DNA from: Pseudomonadota bacterium
Lineage (GTDB): Bacteria; Pseudomonadota; Gammaproteobacteria; Burkholderiales; JABEVD01
Direction: 5' to 3'
NCBI GenBank assembly: GCA_021835845.1
Contig: JAKBJU010000020.1
Span: forward strand, 1-36,720
Length of the DNA: 36,720 nt
The notes below the pieces were generated by a model that saw nothing but the letters and a program-made list of their open reading frames with translations, was not told the DNA's origin and did not search any database. This document shows, piece after piece, positions 28,052 through 36,511 of this stretch. How positions within the stretch are numbered: the stretch's first letter is position 1; the number at the start of each line of letters is the position of its first letter. Made by a program: the position numbers and the translations under genes.

Positions 28052-29920
28052 TTACTTCGCGATCCTGACGAGATTTCTCCCGGCCTGTTTCGCGTTGTAG
28101 AGCGCGACGTCGGCTGCCTTGATGAGCGCGTCGAACCCGCCCATTCCCGGATTCCTGATGGCCACGCCGATGCTCGCCGTGACGGGAATCCGGATTTTTC
28201 CGTCCACGAAAGGAGCGGATTCCACCGCCGACCTGAGCCGTTCTGCACACTGCTCGGCGGCCTTCGGGTTCGCCTCGGGAAGAATCGCCAGAAACTCCTC
28301 CCCTCCGAAGCGGCAGATCACGTCCTGGGCCCTGGACGCCTTCTTCAGCACATGGGCGAAATGGCGGATCACCTTGTCTCCGATGTCGTGGCCGTAAGCG
28401 TCGTTGATCGGCTTGAATCTGTCTATGTCCAGCATCATGCAGGCAAGCTCCCCGTGGCGATTCCATTCCCAGGCCATGCGCTCCATGGCATAGCGCCTGT
28501 TCGGCAGGCCGGAAAGCGGGTCGGTACGGGAAGCTTCCTGCGCACGCCGGTTCGCCACGGCGAGATCGGAGGCGACATTGCGCAATTCCTCCCTGTCCTT
28601 CGACAGCTCCTCCCGCATTTCCACGAAATGCCGGGCAGCGAGAAGGTGGGCAGCGAGAAAGCGCTGTCCGCGGGAAAGGGCGATGCAGTCGTCCGCGCCC
28701 GCCTCGAAAGCTTCGACCTGGCTTTCCAGGTCGTCCTCTCCGGCGAGAAGAACGGCATAGACGAGCTTCCCGGAAGGCAGCCTGCGCAGGGCTTCGACGA
28801 ATGCCGGGCCCGCCAGGCCCGGCACTGAAAATTCGCACAGGACCAGCTGGGGATCGGCCTCCAGCGCGATCCGCATGGCTTCCTCCTCCGTGGAGGCCGT
28901 CAATACGGCATGCCCCAGGGACGCGAGGAACCCGGAAAGCTCCGACAAGACGGGCTCCTTTGCAATCAGGAGAATTTGCAGTCCAGGAGCGAATTCCCCG
29001 GTGCGGGGTCCATCCTGAGGAATCGCCACCATCATTTCTTCGAAGCTGGGAAGAGGCTGGCTCGGCACATCGAGTATCCTGCCCCATTCCTGCCAGCTTG
29101 CGCTCGCCCTGTTGCAAAGCGCCCCGAACTCTTCCTGGTCGAACCCGAGCTCCTTCGCTTCGCGCAGCAGATCGGGCATCCTGGACGAGATGCGCGCCTC
29201 CCCGGAAAGAAAGTCTTCGGCAAGCGCGCCTGAAAAATGCCATATCCTGCACAGTTTGTATTCCCTCGAACTCCTGGGAAAAGGCATCGCGTCGGGATCT
29301 TCCTGATGCAGGGCGACGCTGGCGAAAAGGGGCGGAAGCATCCAGTCCTGGAGCAAGGCGCCGGTCAGCTCCAGGTGGTCGGTCGCAAAACGGCTCCTCT
29401 CCAGCTCCAGGCGCGCCGGCCCGGACGATCCGCCGGACAGGATCTCCGAATAGGCTGCGGGATACAGCGTCGCCAGGGCAAGCGAGCCCACTCCGGAGAG
29501 CAGCGCGCCGATGAAGCATTCCTCCGGCTGGGCCACCCTGGTTCTTTCGCAGATCAGCTGGGCAACGATGGCGCAGGCAAGGGATTTGGACCAGAAGCGC
29601 ATGTAGTCGAATTCTTTGCATGCCCCCTGCCTGTTGTTGTTCAGGACGGAAAATCCCAGCGCGATCTGCCGGGTCGCTGCCATGCCGAGCAGATTGAGCG
29701 CATCGGGTATCGAAGCGATGACCCGGCTTCCGGCCTTCAGGTGATTGGCATACTTGATCAGCTTGCCGCTGAGAACGGGGTCGGCCTGGACGATGTGGCC
29801 GATTTCGGCAAGCGACGCGTCAGGCTCCAGGGTGAGCTGGAAGAGCGCCAGCGCAACCCCCGCAGGGGAAGGAAGATTGCCGCTCGCCTTCAGCTCGTCG
29901 AAATTCAGTGCGGATCTCAT
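28052..29920 (-). CDS. HDOD - degenerate receiver - GGDEF diguanylate cyclase
   Basis: This is a 622-residue signalling protein. Residues about 12-210 form an HDOD domain ([32 protein letters not shown]). Residues about 315-435 look like a response-regulator receiver, but the phospho-acceptor Asp is Glu363 (LCEFSVPG), the N-terminal acidic pair is lost (IAKE), and the Thr and Lys positions are not conserved. A charged helical linker leads to a GGDEF domain (465-620) with active-site GGEEF at 539-543 and an inhibitory I-site RAQD at 530-533, five residues upstream. It should make cyclic di-GMP and bind it as feedback. ATG 29920 (MRSALNF) is chosen; a longer reading to 29983 runs into the promoter region. 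Confidence 0.9.
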
Positions 29921-29945
29921 TTGATCTCTATTGTTGTTTCCGGGA

Positions 29946-29975
29946 ATTCTACCCCCATCCCGCAGAAAATCCCAA
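29946..29975 (-). promoter_or_regulatory. Candidate promoter for the HDOD-GGDEF gene
   Basis: On the minus strand TTGGGA (29975-29970, 4/6) is followed by 18 bases and TAGAAT (29951-29946, 5/6). The predicted start is near 29939, about 19 bases before the ATG, with GAGA near it as a weak ribosome site. Confidence 0.35.
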
Positions 29976-29978
29976 CTG

Positions 29979-30008
29979 TTCACCCAAAACGGCAGCCGGG
30001 AGTATAAT
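29979..30008 (+). promoter_or_regulatory. Candidate promoter for miaB-phoH-ybeY
   Basis: TTCACC (29979-29984, 4/6) is followed by 18 bases and a perfect TATAAT (30003-30008). The predicted start is near 30015, about 19 bases before the miaB ATG, with GGGACAGGG as a possible ribosome site. It overlaps the divergent promoter of the GGDEF gene, so the two may interfere. Confidence 0.5.
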
Positions 30009-31374: not shown

Positions 31375-32315
31375 AGACGGAATCCGTCTCCTTTTCTCCT
31401 GCCGACAACAGGCGGCTTTCCAGCCTTTGCGGGGCTCTGGACGAGAATCTGCGCCAGATCGAGGTGGCGATGGGCGTCTCCATTTCGAGGAGGGGGGAGC
31501 ATTTCGCCGTGAAGGGGGAACCCGAAAAAGCCAAGCTCGCCGTCTCCGCCCTCGAGAAATTCTATCTCCAGACGAAAGGGCGCGACATCGACATCGAGGA
31601 AATCCAGCTCGGTCTGGTCGAACTGCTCTCCCCCGGAAGATCGGAGGGGCAGGCCGCAAGTCCGATGCTGATGACCCGAAAATCCAACCTGCACGGCAGG
31701 ACCCCGCGCCAGACGGAGTACCTCGAATGCATCCAGAAGCACGACATCACTTTCGGCATAGGGCCTGCCGGAACCGGGAAAACCTATCTCGCCGTCGCCT
31801 CCGCAGTCGACGCCATCGAGCGGGAATGGGTGAAGCGCATCGTCCTGGTGAGGCCCGCCGTGGAAGCGGGGGAGCGCCTCGGATTCTTGCCCGGGGACAT
31901 GGCGCAGAAGATCGATCCCTATTTGCGCCCCCTTTACGACGCGCTCTACGACCTGATGGGGTTCGATCGGGTGGGCAGGCTCTTCGAATCGGGTGCGATA
32001 GAAGTCGCGCCGCTCGCCTACATGCGCGGCAGGACGCTCAACCATTCCTTCATCATTCTCGACGAAGCGCAGAACACCACCCCCGAGCAGATGAAGATGT
32101 TCCTCACCAGGATGGGATTCGGGAGCCGCGCCGTGATCACCGGAGACGTGACCCAGGTCGACCTCGCCAAAGGCCAGAGAAGCGGCCTCGTCGAAGCTGC
32201 CGCGGTCCTGAGGAAGGTGCCGGGAATCGCCTTCACCCACTTCCAGGCCGAGGACGTGGTGCGTCACCCGCTGGTCCAGCTGATCGTCAATGCCTACCAG
32301 GCCTATGAAAAGTGA
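31371..32315 (+). CDS. phoH: PhoH/YbeZ family ATPase
   Basis: This is a 314-residue PhoH-type P-loop ATPase (YbeZ). Walker A GPAGTGKT is at 131-138, Walker B is in FIILDEAQN, and MRGRTLNH and [10 protein letters not shown] are typical. The N-terminal 100 residues form the small RNA-binding-like domain. YbeZ works with YbeY in RNA processing, and the two genes overlap here. It lies in the conserved miaB-ybeZ-ybeY order, but corC-lnt, which normally follow, are about 10 kb upstream. Confidence 0.95.
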
Positions 32316-32733
32316 TTTGAGCCTCTCCGTCCAGTACGCTTCGACCGCAGAAAACCTCCCGACCCGACCCCGTTTCAGGAAGTGGGTCGGCGCCGCCCTG
32401 CAAAGTCCGGCGAAAATCACGATCAGGATCGTCGACGAGGAAGAAGGCAGAAGCCTCAACAGGGACTACAGAGGCCGCGACTATGCGACCAACGTGCTCA
32501 CCTTCGTCTACGAAGAAGCGGAAGGGGACATCGTGATCTGCGCGCCGGTTCTGATGAAGGAAGCGCTTGAGCAGAAGAAGCCGCTCGAATCCCATTATGC
32601 GCACATGACGGTGCACGGGACGCTGCATCTCCAGGGGTACGACCACGAAAGCGACGGAGAAGCCGCGATCATGGAATCGCTCGAAACCGCGATCATGGCG
32701 AAGCTCGGTTACCCCGATCCTTACGGTGTATAA
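32305..32733 (+). CDS. ybeY: Endoribonuclease YbeY
   Basis: This is a 142-residue zinc metalloprotein acting in 16S rRNA 3'-end maturation and ribosome quality control. The zinc site [11 protein letters not shown] (H-x3-H-x5-H) and the earlier block [16 protein letters not shown] are diagnostic. Two in-frame starts exist, ATG 32290 and ATG 32305. I prefer 32305 ([13 protein letters not shown]), which overlaps phoH by 11 bases and has CAGG just upstream, but this is uncertain. Its stop TAA lies inside the TATAAT of the next gene's likely promoter. Confidence 0.93.
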
Positions 32734-32740: not shown

Positions 32741-33871
32741 ATGAAAAAAGCCATTTTCCTTGCGCTTTGCCTGCTCTGCGCGTCCGCCCCCGCAAGGCCC
32801 TCCGATCTCCCGCCCGCGCCGCATGTCGAGGCGAGCGCCTACCTGGTGCTCGATTACAACAGCGGACAGATCCTGCTTTCCCGCCATGCCGACGAGCGCA
32901 TCGAGCCCGCATCGCTCACCAGGCTGATGAGCGCCTACATCGTATTCGACGCCCTGAAGCAGAAGGCGATCAGGCCGAATCAGAAGATCACCGTCTCGGA
33001 AAAGGCATCGCATGCCGAAGGGCCCAGGATGTTCATCGAGCCGAAAATGGCCGTGACCGTCGACCAGCTGCTCCACGGCATGATCGTCGAGTCCGGCAAC
33101 GATGCCTGCATCGCGCTCGCCGAAGGCGTGGCCGGATCGGAGCAGGCCTTCGTCGAAAAGATGAACCGGGAAGCGCAGCACCTCGGCATGAAGAACACGC
33201 ATTTCACCAATGCGACCGGGCTGCCGAGCCCGGATCACTACACCACGGCCCGCGACCTCGCGACCCTTTCGGCTGCGCTCATCAGGAACTTCCCCGAATA
33301 CTACCCCCTCTTCTCGATCAGGCAGTACACCTGGAACGGCATTGCCCAGCCCAACAGGAACAGGCTGCTGTGGATGGACCCCTACGTCGACGGGCTGGAA
33401 ACCGGGCATGGCGGAACAGCCGGCTACTGCCTCGTCGCCTCGGTGAAAAGGGACAGCAGGCGGCTGATCTCGGTGCTGGCAGGCGCGGGCTCGGACAGCG
33501 GCAGGGCGATGGATAGCCTGCAGCTTCTCAATTACGCGCTCCAGTACTACAACTCGGTGCGCCTCTATGCAAAAGGGCAGACGGTCACCACCCTCAGGGT
33601 CTGGAAGGGCAAGCAGAACACCCTTAAGGCGGGATTTCTCGACGATCTTTACGTCACCGTTCCCAGGGGGGAGGAGTCCGGGCTGCAGGCCACGATAGAA
33701 GCCCAGCAGCCGCTCATCGTTCCCGTTCTCGCGGGGCAGAAGGTCGGGGTGGTGAAAATCAATCTCGACGGAAAGCGTTTCGCGGAATTCCCCCTCGTCT
33801 CGCTGGAAAACGTGGCTCCGGCCAACATTTTCGGCCGGGTCTGGGACAGTTTCAAGCTACTTTTCGACTAG
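32741..33871 (+). CDS. DacC-family PBP homologue with both catalytic Lys replaced
   Basis: This is a 376-residue class C low-molecular-weight penicillin-binding protein (D-alanyl-D-alanine carboxypeptidase family, PBP5/6-like). The signal peptide is clear (MKKAIFLALCLLCASAPARP). The fold is complete, with a peptidase S11 domain (about 28-255), a PBP5 C-terminal beta domain (about 275-365) and a terminal amphipathic helix (DSFKLLF). The nucleophile Ser58 is in PASLTRLM, but the SxxK lysine is Arg61 (AGG, 32921-32923). SGN 118-120 is intact. The KTG triad is ETG, Glu220 (GAA, 33398-33400). Such a protein is not expected to be an active carboxypeptidase. It sits where active dacA/dacC lies in relatives, before dat-ybeD-lipB-lipA. 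Confidence 0.92.
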   Translation: MKKAIFLALCLLCASAPARPSDLPPAPHVEASAYLVLDYNSGQILLSRHADERIEPASLTRLMSAYIVFDALKQKAIRPNQKITVSEKASHAEGPRMFIEPKMAVTVDQLLHGMIVESGNDACIALAEGVAGSEQAFVEKMNREAQHLGMKNTHFTNATGLPSPDHYTTARDLATLSAALIRNFPEYYPLFSIRQYTWNGIAQPNRNRLLWMDPYVDGLETGHGGTAGYCLVASVKRDSRRLISVLAGAGSDSGRAMDSLQLLNYALQYYNSVRLYAKGQTVTTLRVWKGKQNTLKAGFLDDLYVTVPRGEESGLQATIEAQQPLIVPVLAGQKVGVVKINLDGKRFAEFPLVSLENVAPANIFGRVWDSFKLLFD

Positions 33872-33877
33872 GAAATC

Positions 33878-34726
33878 ATGATCTATCTCAACGGAAAATT
33901 CATGCCGATGGAGGAGGCGCGCATTCCCGTCCTCGACCGCGGCTTCATTTTCGGCGACGGCGTCTACGAAGTCATTCCCGTCTATTCCCGGCATCCCTTC
34001 CGGCTGGAGGAGCATCTTTCCAGGCTGCAGCACAGCCTGGACGGCATCAGGCTGGACAATCCGCACTCTGCGGGCGAATGGGAAGAACGTATCCGGCGCC
34101 TCGTCGAGCTCAACGAGCCAGAGGATCAGAGCGTTTATCTCCAGGTCACGCGGGGAGTGGCGAAACGGGACCATGCCTTCCCGAAAGGCATCGAGCCCAC
34201 CGTGTTCATGATGTCCAATCCGCTCGTCACCCCTTCCAGGGAAACCCTGGAGAAGGGAGTCGCGACGATCAGCGCGGCGGACAACCGCTGGCTGCGCTGC
34301 GACATCAAGGCGACCTCCCTGCTGCCCAACGTGCTTCTTAGGCAGATGGCGGTGGATGCTGGCGCCGCGGAAACGATCCTGCTGCGGGACGGCTTCCTCA
34401 CCGAAGGCGCGGCCAGCAACATCTTCGCGGTGAAGGACGGCATCCTGCTCGCGCCTCCCAAGGACAACCTGATGCTGCCGGGCATCACCTACGACGTGGT
34501 GCTGGAGCTCGCGCAAAGCATCGGACTGCCTTGCGAAGTGAGGCAGGTGTCGGAGAACGAGCTCTTCTGTGCATCCGAACTCCTGCTCACTTCCTCCACC
34601 AAGGAAGTCACGCCGATCACGTCCCTAGACGGAAAACCCGTGGGGAACGGCAAGCCGGGGCCGGTGTTCGAAAAACTGCATGCCGCCTACCAGGCATTCA
34701 AGCATTCCGTGATGAGGAGGGCATGA
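33878..34726 (+). CDS. dat: D-amino acid aminotransferase
   Basis: This is a 282-residue fold-type IV PLP aminotransferase (BCAT/D-AAT group) converting D-alanine and 2-oxoglutarate to pyruvate and D-glutamate. The N-terminal PVLDRGFIFGDGVYEVIPVY, PLP lysine in CDIKATSLLPNVL, and EGAASNIFAV are typical of D-AAT. D-amino acid metabolism fits its place beside a PBP homologue. ATG 33878 has AGGA nearby. The stop overlaps the ybeD start by 4 bases (ATGA). Confidence 0.93.
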   Translation: MIYLNGKFMPMEEARIPVLDRGFIFGDGVYEVIPVYSRHPFRLEEHLSRLQHSLDGIRLDNPHSAGEWEERIRRLVELNEPEDQSVYLQVTRGVAKRDHAFPKGIEPTVFMMSNPLVTPSRETLEKGVATISAADNRWLRCDIKATSLLPNVLLRQMAVDAGAAETILLRDGFLTEGAASNIFAVKDGILLAPPKDNLMLPGITYDVVLELAQSIGLPCEVRQVSENELFCASELLLTSSTKEVTPITSLDGKPVGNGKPGPVFEKLHAAYQAFKHSVMRRA

Positions 34727-34989
34727 GCGGGGAGTCCCTGATCGAATACCCCTGCGCCTTTCCGATCAAGATCATGGGAAGGAGCGAAAACGCGGGATTC
34801 GCCGACGCGGTTCTGGGCGTGGTGCTCGCGCACGATCCAAGTTTCGAGGCGTCCGGCATGGAAATGCGCGCCAGCCGCGAGGGAAAATACATCAGCCTCA
34901 CCTGCACCGTGAACGCGACCTCGCGCGAGCAGCTCGATTCCCTCTACCGGGAATTGTGCGGCCATCCCCTGGTCGTCATGGTGCTTTGA
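34723..34989 (+). CDS. ybeD: YbeD/DUF493 family protein
   Basis: This is an 88-residue DUF493 protein of ferredoxin-like ACT-type fold. The block LIEYPCAFPIKIMGR near the N-terminus, SREGKYISLTCTVNATSREQLD and the C-terminal VVMVL are typical. Function is unproven; the gene is almost always next to lipB. ATG 34723 has GAGGAGGG directly upstream and overlaps the dat stop. Its own stop overlaps the lipB ATG by one base (TGATG). Confidence 0.93.
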   Translation: MSGESLIEYPCAFPIKIMGRSENAGFADAVLGVVLAHDPSFEASGMEMRASREGKYISLTCTVNATSREQLDSLYRELCGHPLVVMVL

Positions 34990-35591
34990 TGGAAATCCTC
35001 GTGAGGCGGCTCGGCCTCGCCGAATACCTGCCGACTTTCCAGGCGATGCAGGATTTCACCTCGCGAAGGGATCCGCAAACCCCCGACGAAATCTGGATGC
35101 TGCAGCATCCGCCGATCTATACTTACGGGCTCGCGGGAAGGCCGGAGCACCTTCCGCTTAAGCCCGCGATTCCGGTCCTGAAGGTGGACAGGGGGGGGCA
35201 GGTCACCTACCATGGCCCGGGACAGCTCGTCCTTTATCTCCTGCTCGACCTGAAGCGCAGGAATACGGGCGTGCGGGCGCTCGTGACGAAAATGGAGCAG
35301 GCAGTGATCAGGCTGCTGGAAAACCACGGCGTGCAGGCAGAATCGAGGAGGGATGCGCCCGGAGTCTACGCGGGAAGCGCGAAAATCGCATCCCTGGGCC
35401 TCAGGGTGAAGCGGGGCTGCTGCTACCACGGCTTGTCCCTCAATGTGGACATGGACCTCTCCCCCTTTTCCATGATCGATCCCTGCGGCTACAGGGGACT
35501 GGAAGTGACCAGGACGAAGGACCTCGGAATCGGCGAATCGGCGGATCGGCTCGGGGACGAGCTGGTCGCTATACTGAAGGAAATGCTATGA
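34989..35591 (+). CDS. lipB: Octanoyl-ACP:protein N-octanoyltransferase
   Basis: This is a 200-residue enzyme that moves octanoate from acyl carrier protein onto lipoyl domains. The family block [20 protein letters not shown] (69-88) is complete. Catalytic Lys132 (SAKIASLG) and Cys166 (DPCGYRGL) are in place. The ATG overlaps ybeD by one base, and the stop overlaps lipA by 4 bases (ATGA), so the lipoate genes are translated as a unit. Confidence 0.96.
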
Positions 35592-36511
35592 CGGAAAGAC
35601 AGAAGGGGGAGGCCAAGACTGCCAGGATCCCGATCAAGATCGTGCCGCAGCCGGTTGCGAGAAAGCCGGAATGGATCAGGGTGAAGTCCGGAAGCTCAGG
35701 AAACTACCACGAGATCAAGAAGCTGCTCAGGGAGCGCAATCTCCACACGGTATGCGAGGAAGCCTCCTGCCCCAACATAGGCGAATGCTTCGGCAAGGGA
35801 ACGGCGACCTTCATGATCCTCGGGGATCTGTGCACCAGGCGCTGCCCCTTCTGCGACGTCGCCCACGGCAAGCCGCTGCCCCCCGATCCTCATGAGCCCC
35901 TGCATCTTGCCGAATCGATTGCCGCATTGAAGCTGAAGTACGTGGTGATCACGAGCGTCGACCGGGATGACCTGAGGGACGGGGGAGCGCGGCATTTCGT
36001 CGACTGCATCGATGCCGTCAGGGAGCATTCGCCCGAGACGAAAATCGAGGTTCTGGTTCCCGACTTCAGGGGAAGGCTGGATATCGCCCTCGAAATCTTC
36101 GGCGAAGGGCTTCCCGACGTGATGAACCACAATCTGGAAACGGTGCCGCGGCTCTACAGGGCGGCGCGGCCGGGGGCCGACTACCTGCATTCGCTCGCGC
36201 TCCTTTCCGAATTCAAGAAAAGGCATCCCGGCATCCCCACGAAGTCGGGCATCATGCTGGGGCTGGGCGAGGAGGACGGCGAGGTTCTGGAAGTGATGGC
36301 GGACATGAGGAAGCACGGCGTGCAAATGCTCACCCTCGGCCAGTATCTCCAGCCCTCGAAGGGCCATCTTCCCGTTTCGCGCTTCGTCCATCCGGACCGG
36401 TTTCTCGAATTCGAGAAGGCCGCCATGGAAATGGGATTCTCGCACGCGGCCTGCGGCCCCATGGTGCGCTCTTCCTACCATGCGGACCTCCAGGCGCACG
36501 GCTTGGTGTGA
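35588..36511 (+). CDS. lipA: Lipoyl synthase
   Basis: This is a 307-residue radical-SAM enzyme inserting two sulfurs into octanoyl lipoyl domains. The auxiliary cluster is Cys56, Cys61 and Cys67 ([12 protein letters not shown]), and the radical-SAM cluster Cys82-x3-Cys86-x2-Cys89. The C-terminal RSSYHAD supplies the Ser ligand. By my count 11 of its 22 Arg codons are AGG. It ends the plus-strand series; an IS30-family element begins about 15-20 bases after the stop. Confidence 0.97.

Follow-up and report, generated by a model that had tools for sequence, protein, structure and literature searches.

The dacC gene in the 36,720-nucleotide stretch of DNA analysed here (the window) encodes a PBP5-type protein without the SxxK and KTG lysines, and this protein is retained by purifying selection, less tightly than its two paralogues. 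In the clade to which the window's genome belongs, the catalytic domain of DacC evolves about twice as fast as its C-terminal beta domain, and intact DacC and the paralogue DacA2 show the opposite. We consider it probable, from sequence comparisons, that DacC is a retained pseudo-carboxypeptidase: DacA2, with PbpG and an S13 enzyme, would do the trimming, and DacC would serve as a scaffold or partner through its C-terminal domain and membrane anchor.

DacC lacks both motif lysines and is predicted to keep the PBP5 fold

Contig C31, which forms the window, belongs to a 2.2-Mb genome (32 contigs, 95.55% complete); dacC lies there between ybeY and dat, upstream of lipB and lipA (Table 1). Elsewhere in the window, a gene for an HDOD, response-regulator-like and GGDEF fusion protein (28052-29983, minus strand) adjoins miaB.

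Table 1. Features of the dacC locus, in positions of the window.
Feature	Position	Strand	Basis and remarks
ybeY, upstream neighbour of dacC	32290..32733	+	Pfam YbeY
dacC (probable pseudo-carboxypeptidase)	32741..33871	+	376 aa plus stop, ATG start; open frame
Putative N-terminal signal peptide, codons 1-19	32741..32797	+	hydrophobic N-terminus judged by eye
Catalytic-fold domain I, codons 27-264	32819..33532	+	Pfam S11 match at residues 26-249; boundary set for rate tests
SxxK motif, S-L-T-R	32912..32923	+	Ser58 TCG at 32912-32914; codon 61 AGG at 32921-32923
SxN motif, S-G-N (118-120), intact	33092..33100	+	
KTG motif, E-T-G (220-222)	33398..33406	+	codon 220 GAA at 33398-33400
C-terminal beta domain II, codons 265-358	33533..33814	+	PBP5_C match at residues 270-358; rates from codons 265-365
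Predicted C-terminal amphipathic anchor helix, codons 363-375	33827..33865	+	AlphaFold2 helix, block pLDDT 52-59 (low)
dat, class IV aminotransferase, downstream neighbour of dacC	33878..34726	+	Pfam Aminotran_4
Small protein gene that we take to be of the ybeD type	34723..34989	+	ORF; served as locus anchor in comparisons
lipB	34989..35591	+	Pfam LplA-B_cat
lipA	35588..36511	+	Pfam LIAS_N and Radical_SAM

The dacC product matched Peptidase_S11 at 256.3 bits (curated Pfam cut-off 27.6) and PBP5_C at 85.4 bits (cut-off 21.2). Its AlphaFold2 model (pLDDT 89.1, pTM 0.83) had P. aeruginosa PBP5 (4k91) as the top PDB match, with TM scores of 0.86/0.94, suggesting that the fold is retained. None of the NCBIfam equivalogs for DacA, DacC and DacD reached its cut-off, the best being DacD (301 bits against 610), and DacA2 likewise stayed under the equivalog cut-off (258 bits), so that 'DacC' is used here as a locus name and not as an equivalog assignment. 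In common with PBP5/DacA, PBP6a/DacC and PBP6b/DacD (MEROPS S11), the protein has the two-domain fold, Ser58 and SGN, to which a putative signal peptide (by eye) and a predicted anchor helix (at low model confidence) may be added. Unlike them, it carries Arg and Glu in place of the SxxK and KTG lysines, and its domain constraint is inverted. The ORF and the Pfam matches bear out what a sequence-only reading had described, namely SLTR with Arg61 and ETG with Glu220 beside an intact Ser58, SGN and C-terminal domain. By descent DacC is a peptidase S11 of the PBP5 type, and its motifs, with Ser58 and SGN present and both lysines missing, suggest that it is not an active carboxypeptidase.

The two codons were reproduced in relatives: AGG and GAA recur in the orthologues of G006 (97% amino acid identity) and G001 (91%), two further species-level genomes, whereas the intact sister G007 reads AAG and AAA at these positions. 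The proposed derivation by single A-to-G steps from AAG and AAA is compatible with the codons of G007, which is a sister rather than an ancestor. Given that three MAGs carry identical codons, sequencing error and a fresh pseudogene are both unlikely; G006 and G001 are suggested to be MAGs from one sample. Recoding of AGG as lysine was ruled out: at 106 AGG columns where the relatives are unanimous, they had Arg at 101, Lys at four and another residue at one, and GAA at position 220 would still be unexplained. Over all 206 AGG codons in the compared genes, the commonest residue in the relatives was Arg (163), Lys (27), another residue (12) or a gap (4).

Loss of the KTG lysine marks one clade of the genus

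The set for this uncultivated genus comprised nine genomes (G000 to G008, G000 being that of the window). DacC covered all motifs in eight of them, the G002 copy ending without its last residues at a contig end, and the G005 copy is a contig-end fragment in which SLTK is visible. The KTG lysine was absent from six of the eight covering orthologues, with Glu220 in G000, G006 and G001, Met in G003, Gly in G004 and Ala in G008; G007 and G002 keep Lys. Arg61 was found only in the three Glu220 species. Further motif changes were GGN in G003, and SLAK and SAN in G008.

The six genomes lacking Lys220 formed one clade with support of 100/100 on 17 concatenated markers, with G007 and then G002 plus G005 outside it. 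In an earlier tree of eight concatenated markers the support for this clade was weak (62), and in the DacC gene tree it was 98. The marker rpoB was without a match in three genomes (G001, G004 and G006) and fragmentary in a fourth (G005). Lys220 was either lost once on the clade stem, with later drift, or lost several times inside the clade.

Arg61 and Glu220 might support another hydrolytic or transfer reaction, as the kept nucleophile and SGN and the joint occurrence of both substitutions in three species would allow. We regard such altered chemistry as very improbable, because the sisters have Met, Gly or Ala at 220 with Lys61 unchanged, which points to drift of the site and not to a new fixed pair.

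An intact PBP5-type paralogue, dacA2, is present throughout the clade

The window's genome has three S11 genes: dacC, a PbpG-type gene on C16, and dacA2 (G000:C24:24191-25321; L058, L114), a full-length PBP5-type gene with SLTK, SGN and KTG. The earlier suggestion that the genome may rely on another paralogue is supported by the presence of dacA2 and the PbpG type, both intact, and of an S13 gene of the DacB type as well. The S13 gene was found in all nine genus genomes except G007, and as a cause of the motif loss the S13 enzyme is unsupported by this distribution. We also observed that G007, the sole genus genome without an S13 match, has an intact DacC.

In all six clade genomes, dacA2 sits between cysN and ribF, and in G007, G002 and G005 these two genes are adjacent with nothing between them. 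Since the cysN-ribF junction is present and empty, it was ruled out that dacA2 had been overlooked in these three genomes through incompleteness. A single gain of dacA2 on the clade stem is the simplest history.

In a sample of 399 genomes from the order, which included our nine, close relatives of dacA2 (67-71% identity) were found in six genomes beyond the genus, of which genus g35 accounts for five and g15 for one. The DacC motifs are kept in each of the six, and also in G128 with a 53% relative of dacA2, indicating that a second copy does not force the loss; G200 in this comparison had SSN at the SxN motif. Neighbours of the cys, ribF, ileS, lspA and ispH kinds were absent within 3.6-4 kb on either side of the six outside relatives. 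Found in two other families, dacA2 looks horizontally spread.

DacC is under purifying selection in both domains

Among the three R61/E220 species, the dN/dS of dacC was 0.133, 0.203 and 0.171. These values are similar in range to those of the adjacent genes ybeY (0.140-0.206) and lipB (0.124-0.158), and are 1.4 to 2.9 times those of dacA2 (0.082-0.092) and pbpG (0.064-0.071). Purifying selection was significant for domain I alone (p 4.3e-5 to 1.9e-9) and for domain II alone (p 6.3e-6 to 4.4e-7) in the same species, and on dN/dS and these two tests we rejected a simple pseudogene as the main reading. The sequence-only reading had proposed, as one of two options, a pseudo-carboxypeptidase kept for binding or scaffolding; that such a protein is kept by selection appears to be supported by a dN/dS of 0.13-0.20 after motif loss, the counted substitutions postdating the loss only if the R61/E220 loss is shared by descent.

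A dN/dS above that of dacA2 and pbpG would also be given by slow decay, in which DacA2 made DacC redundant and dacC is becoming a pseudogene. In the same direction, at positions where 58 other DacC do not vary, each clade member shows 5-6 changes, against 3 in G007 and G002. However, the dacC frames are open and free of stops in all six clade genomes, both domains are under significant purifying selection, and domain II is no faster than in intact DacC; we therefore hold slow decay to be improbable.

The catalytic domain is the faster-evolving part of DacC in the clade

With the species tree fixed, domains I and II of clade DacC had maximum-likelihood tree lengths of 1.191 and 0.582, compared with 1.268 and 2.149 for intact DacC (G007, G002 and four outgroup genomes). 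Parsimony changes per site gave the same picture: 0.866 and 0.475 for domains I and II of clade dacC, 1.021 and 1.436 for intact DacC, and 0.437 and 1.129 for clade dacA2. The contrast of clade dacC was significant against both intact DacC (Fisher 4.6e-7) and dacA2 (2.9e-14).

We then expressed the shift as a ratio of divergence, domain I over domain II, in pairs of 55-90% identity, a range that dropped 3 of the 15 clade pairs among others. The ratio was 1.53-2.17 in the 12 remaining clade pairs, and had a median of 0.67 and a maximum of 1.38 in 1133 intact outgroup pairs; such pairs share branches and cannot be treated as independent, and the clade's dacA2 counts as one event. The intact pair G007-G002 stood at 1.08, above the outgroup median, and 12 pairs of a clade member with an intact sister at 1.19-1.43, which suggests that the shift may in part extend to the whole genus and predate the loss. 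The picture of a protein devoid of both lysines is sharpened: loss at KTG is clade-wide, loss at SxxK is confined to three species, and to these are added the dacA2 insertion and the lower constraint on domain I.

These rates bear on a further reading that starts from the pocket. With Ser58 and SGN intact, acylation by beta-lactams may be possible, and DacC could be a substrate-holding decoy that shields stems or buffers beta-lactams by binding pentapeptides or by slow acylation of Ser58, its role then lying in the pocket and not in domain II. The presence of Ser58 and Asn120 in all eight genus orthologues covering them favours a decoy. So does E. coli PBP5, in which changing the KTG lysine to arginine reportedly abolished carboxypeptidase activity but not penicillin binding. 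In the same vein, two reports describe E. coli PBP6a as an apparently inactive DD-carboxypeptidase that may protect pentapeptides (PMC4916385, PMC5596342). In contrast, clade DacC changes faster in domain I than in domain II, and substitutions continue at motif positions or next to them (A57G, T60A, Q117E, S118G and K220 to E, M, G or A), which would be odd for a kept binding site. On balance we find the decoy rather unlikely.

Degenerate DacC recurs in other families of the order

According to the sequence-only reading, both lysines are close to invariant. In a first sample of 58 other DacC rows they were indeed invariant; this sample was too favourable, as it held the more similar DacC. Among 60 further DacC rows, 53 were intact and seven degenerate, one in each of seven families, so that near-invariance does not hold for DacC of the order. 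The duplicate row L160 and the dacA2 rows were excluded from the DacC counts. Lys220 was kept in 135 of the 155 rows of the wider sample, in which 21/155 is not a base rate because sisters of degenerate rows had been added. Closer to a base rate is the 7/44 of non-genus genomes examined in which DacC is degenerate, the 44 being 51 non-genus genomes minus G016, G029, G031 and G033, and minus G039, G047 and G048, which gave a PbpG-like hit only. The seven degenerate copies show HLTK and ATG (G032); SLAK and MSG (G030); NAN and MAG (G009); ALTQ and KAG (G051); GLSG, GAH and YAT (G025); PLTK, GAN and ILG (G026); and DFVQ, NAE and MSN (G027). These rows (L298, L299, L300, L301, L302, L303 and L304) and their sisters range from one or two motifs changed up to all three lost.

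In six of the seven genomes ybeD lay downstream of the degenerate gene, and in five of these (G009, G025, G026, G030 and G032) lipB was visible as well. For G027 only ybeD is in view, whereas lipB and lipA also appear in its sisters G073 and G116; counting sisters, degenerate DacC stands beside ybeD and lipB in six of seven families, with lipA visible in five. Around the degenerate copy of G051 no anchor gene was found. Intact sisters occur within the degenerate families f2 (G058), f23 (G157) and f44 (G135, G205 and G347). On a FastTree gene tree made without the motif columns, which has long branches, Lys220 changed at least five times and motif status at least six times.

An S11 profile search covered 18 genomes of the degenerate families, 15 of them with a degenerate DacC, and found no dacA2-like S11 gene in those 18. 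Their other S11 genes were of the motif-intact PbpG type, apart from a short S11 gene in three f25 genomes. These short genes (L308, L309 and L310, in G159, G032 and G078) have SLTK, SAN and KTG intact; at 266-274 aa, their frames probably leave no room for a PBP5_C domain. Occurring in genomes with a degenerate full-length DacC, they possibly represent another split of catalysis and stalk domain. An S13 match was found in all nine genomes searched, eight degenerate ones and the intact G058. Given that seven families are degenerate without dacA2 and six outside genomes are intact with it, the motif loss neither requires dacA2 nor follows from its presence, and dacA2 is ruled out as the general cause.

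We also compared domain rates in 11 degenerate pairs of these other families, some of which lie outside the 55-90% identity range. Their ratio was 0.71 to 1.63, and five of the 11 (three of f25, one of three of f18 and one of f19) showed no shift, at 0.71-0.91. The domain II shift is therefore a clear feature of the window's clade but not of degenerate DacC at large.

Discussion

S11 enzymes use the SxxK lysine as their general base, and a part in substrate binding or in activation of the serine is possible for the KTG lysine (PMC9953012). By analogy with this chemistry, DacC without Lys61 and Lys220 should fail at normal D-Ala-D-Ala trimming. In the arrangement that we favour, DacA2 would take over trimming, together with PbpG and the S13 enzyme, and DacC, tethered to the membrane, would act as a scaffold or regulatory partner; DacA2 or another wall enzyme is the most plausible protein for it to pair with. 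A gain of dacA2 on the clade stem, as in the simplest history, probably eased the loss here, although other families lost the motifs without it. A more specific version, which we put forward only tentatively, is that the two jobs of PBP5 have been split, with catalysis in DacA2 and a conserved stalk-domain job in DacC, perhaps as a heterodimer with DacA2.

Work on E. coli makes partner-based roles of such proteins plausible. Self-association is described for PBP5, PBP6a and PBP6b, and the inactive S44G variant of PBP5 causes effects not seen on deletion (PMC5596342). Inactive PBP5 and PBP6b worsen shape defects (PMC4916385), and most of the S44G protein disappears from midcell (PMC2909392). 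The same work also weighs against our reading: inactive PBP5 is harmful in E. coli (PMC4916385, PMC5596342), so an inactive DacC must here be tolerated or put to use.

Several known proteins resemble DacC in part. EnvC and NlpD are degenerate relatives of peptidoglycan hydrolases that regulate active ones. Like DacC, they have a catalytic fold without catalytic residues, and they act through partners; unlike DacC, they belong to a different fold family, and the partner of DacC is a candidate only. E. coli PBP6a keeps the motifs. Reports on PBP6a present, as here, an S11 protein that may serve for something other than trimming, and they differ from our case in that they concern activity in cells and not motif loss (PMC4916385, PMC5596342). 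Further parallels are the seven other families with broken motifs in the resident DacC, from which the window's clade differs in having dacA2; their domain-rate shift is not uniform. In titles and abstract openings of the papers listed by our searches, a scope that leaves most subscription papers outside, we found no earlier description of a DacC/PBP5 pseudoenzyme.

The label 'D-alanyl-D-alanine carboxypeptidase' at the dacC locus can mislead in this order. The window's clade offers a natural experiment in which the catalytic residues are gone and the C-terminal domain is held tightest, while an intact paralogue in the same genomes shows the reverse, and a non-catalytic role of PBP5-type proteins becomes directly testable. 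If the proposed split of the two PBP5 jobs is true, the recurrent motif loss, mostly at one locus, would mean that PBP5-type proteins repeatedly become non-catalytic regulators of the cell wall.
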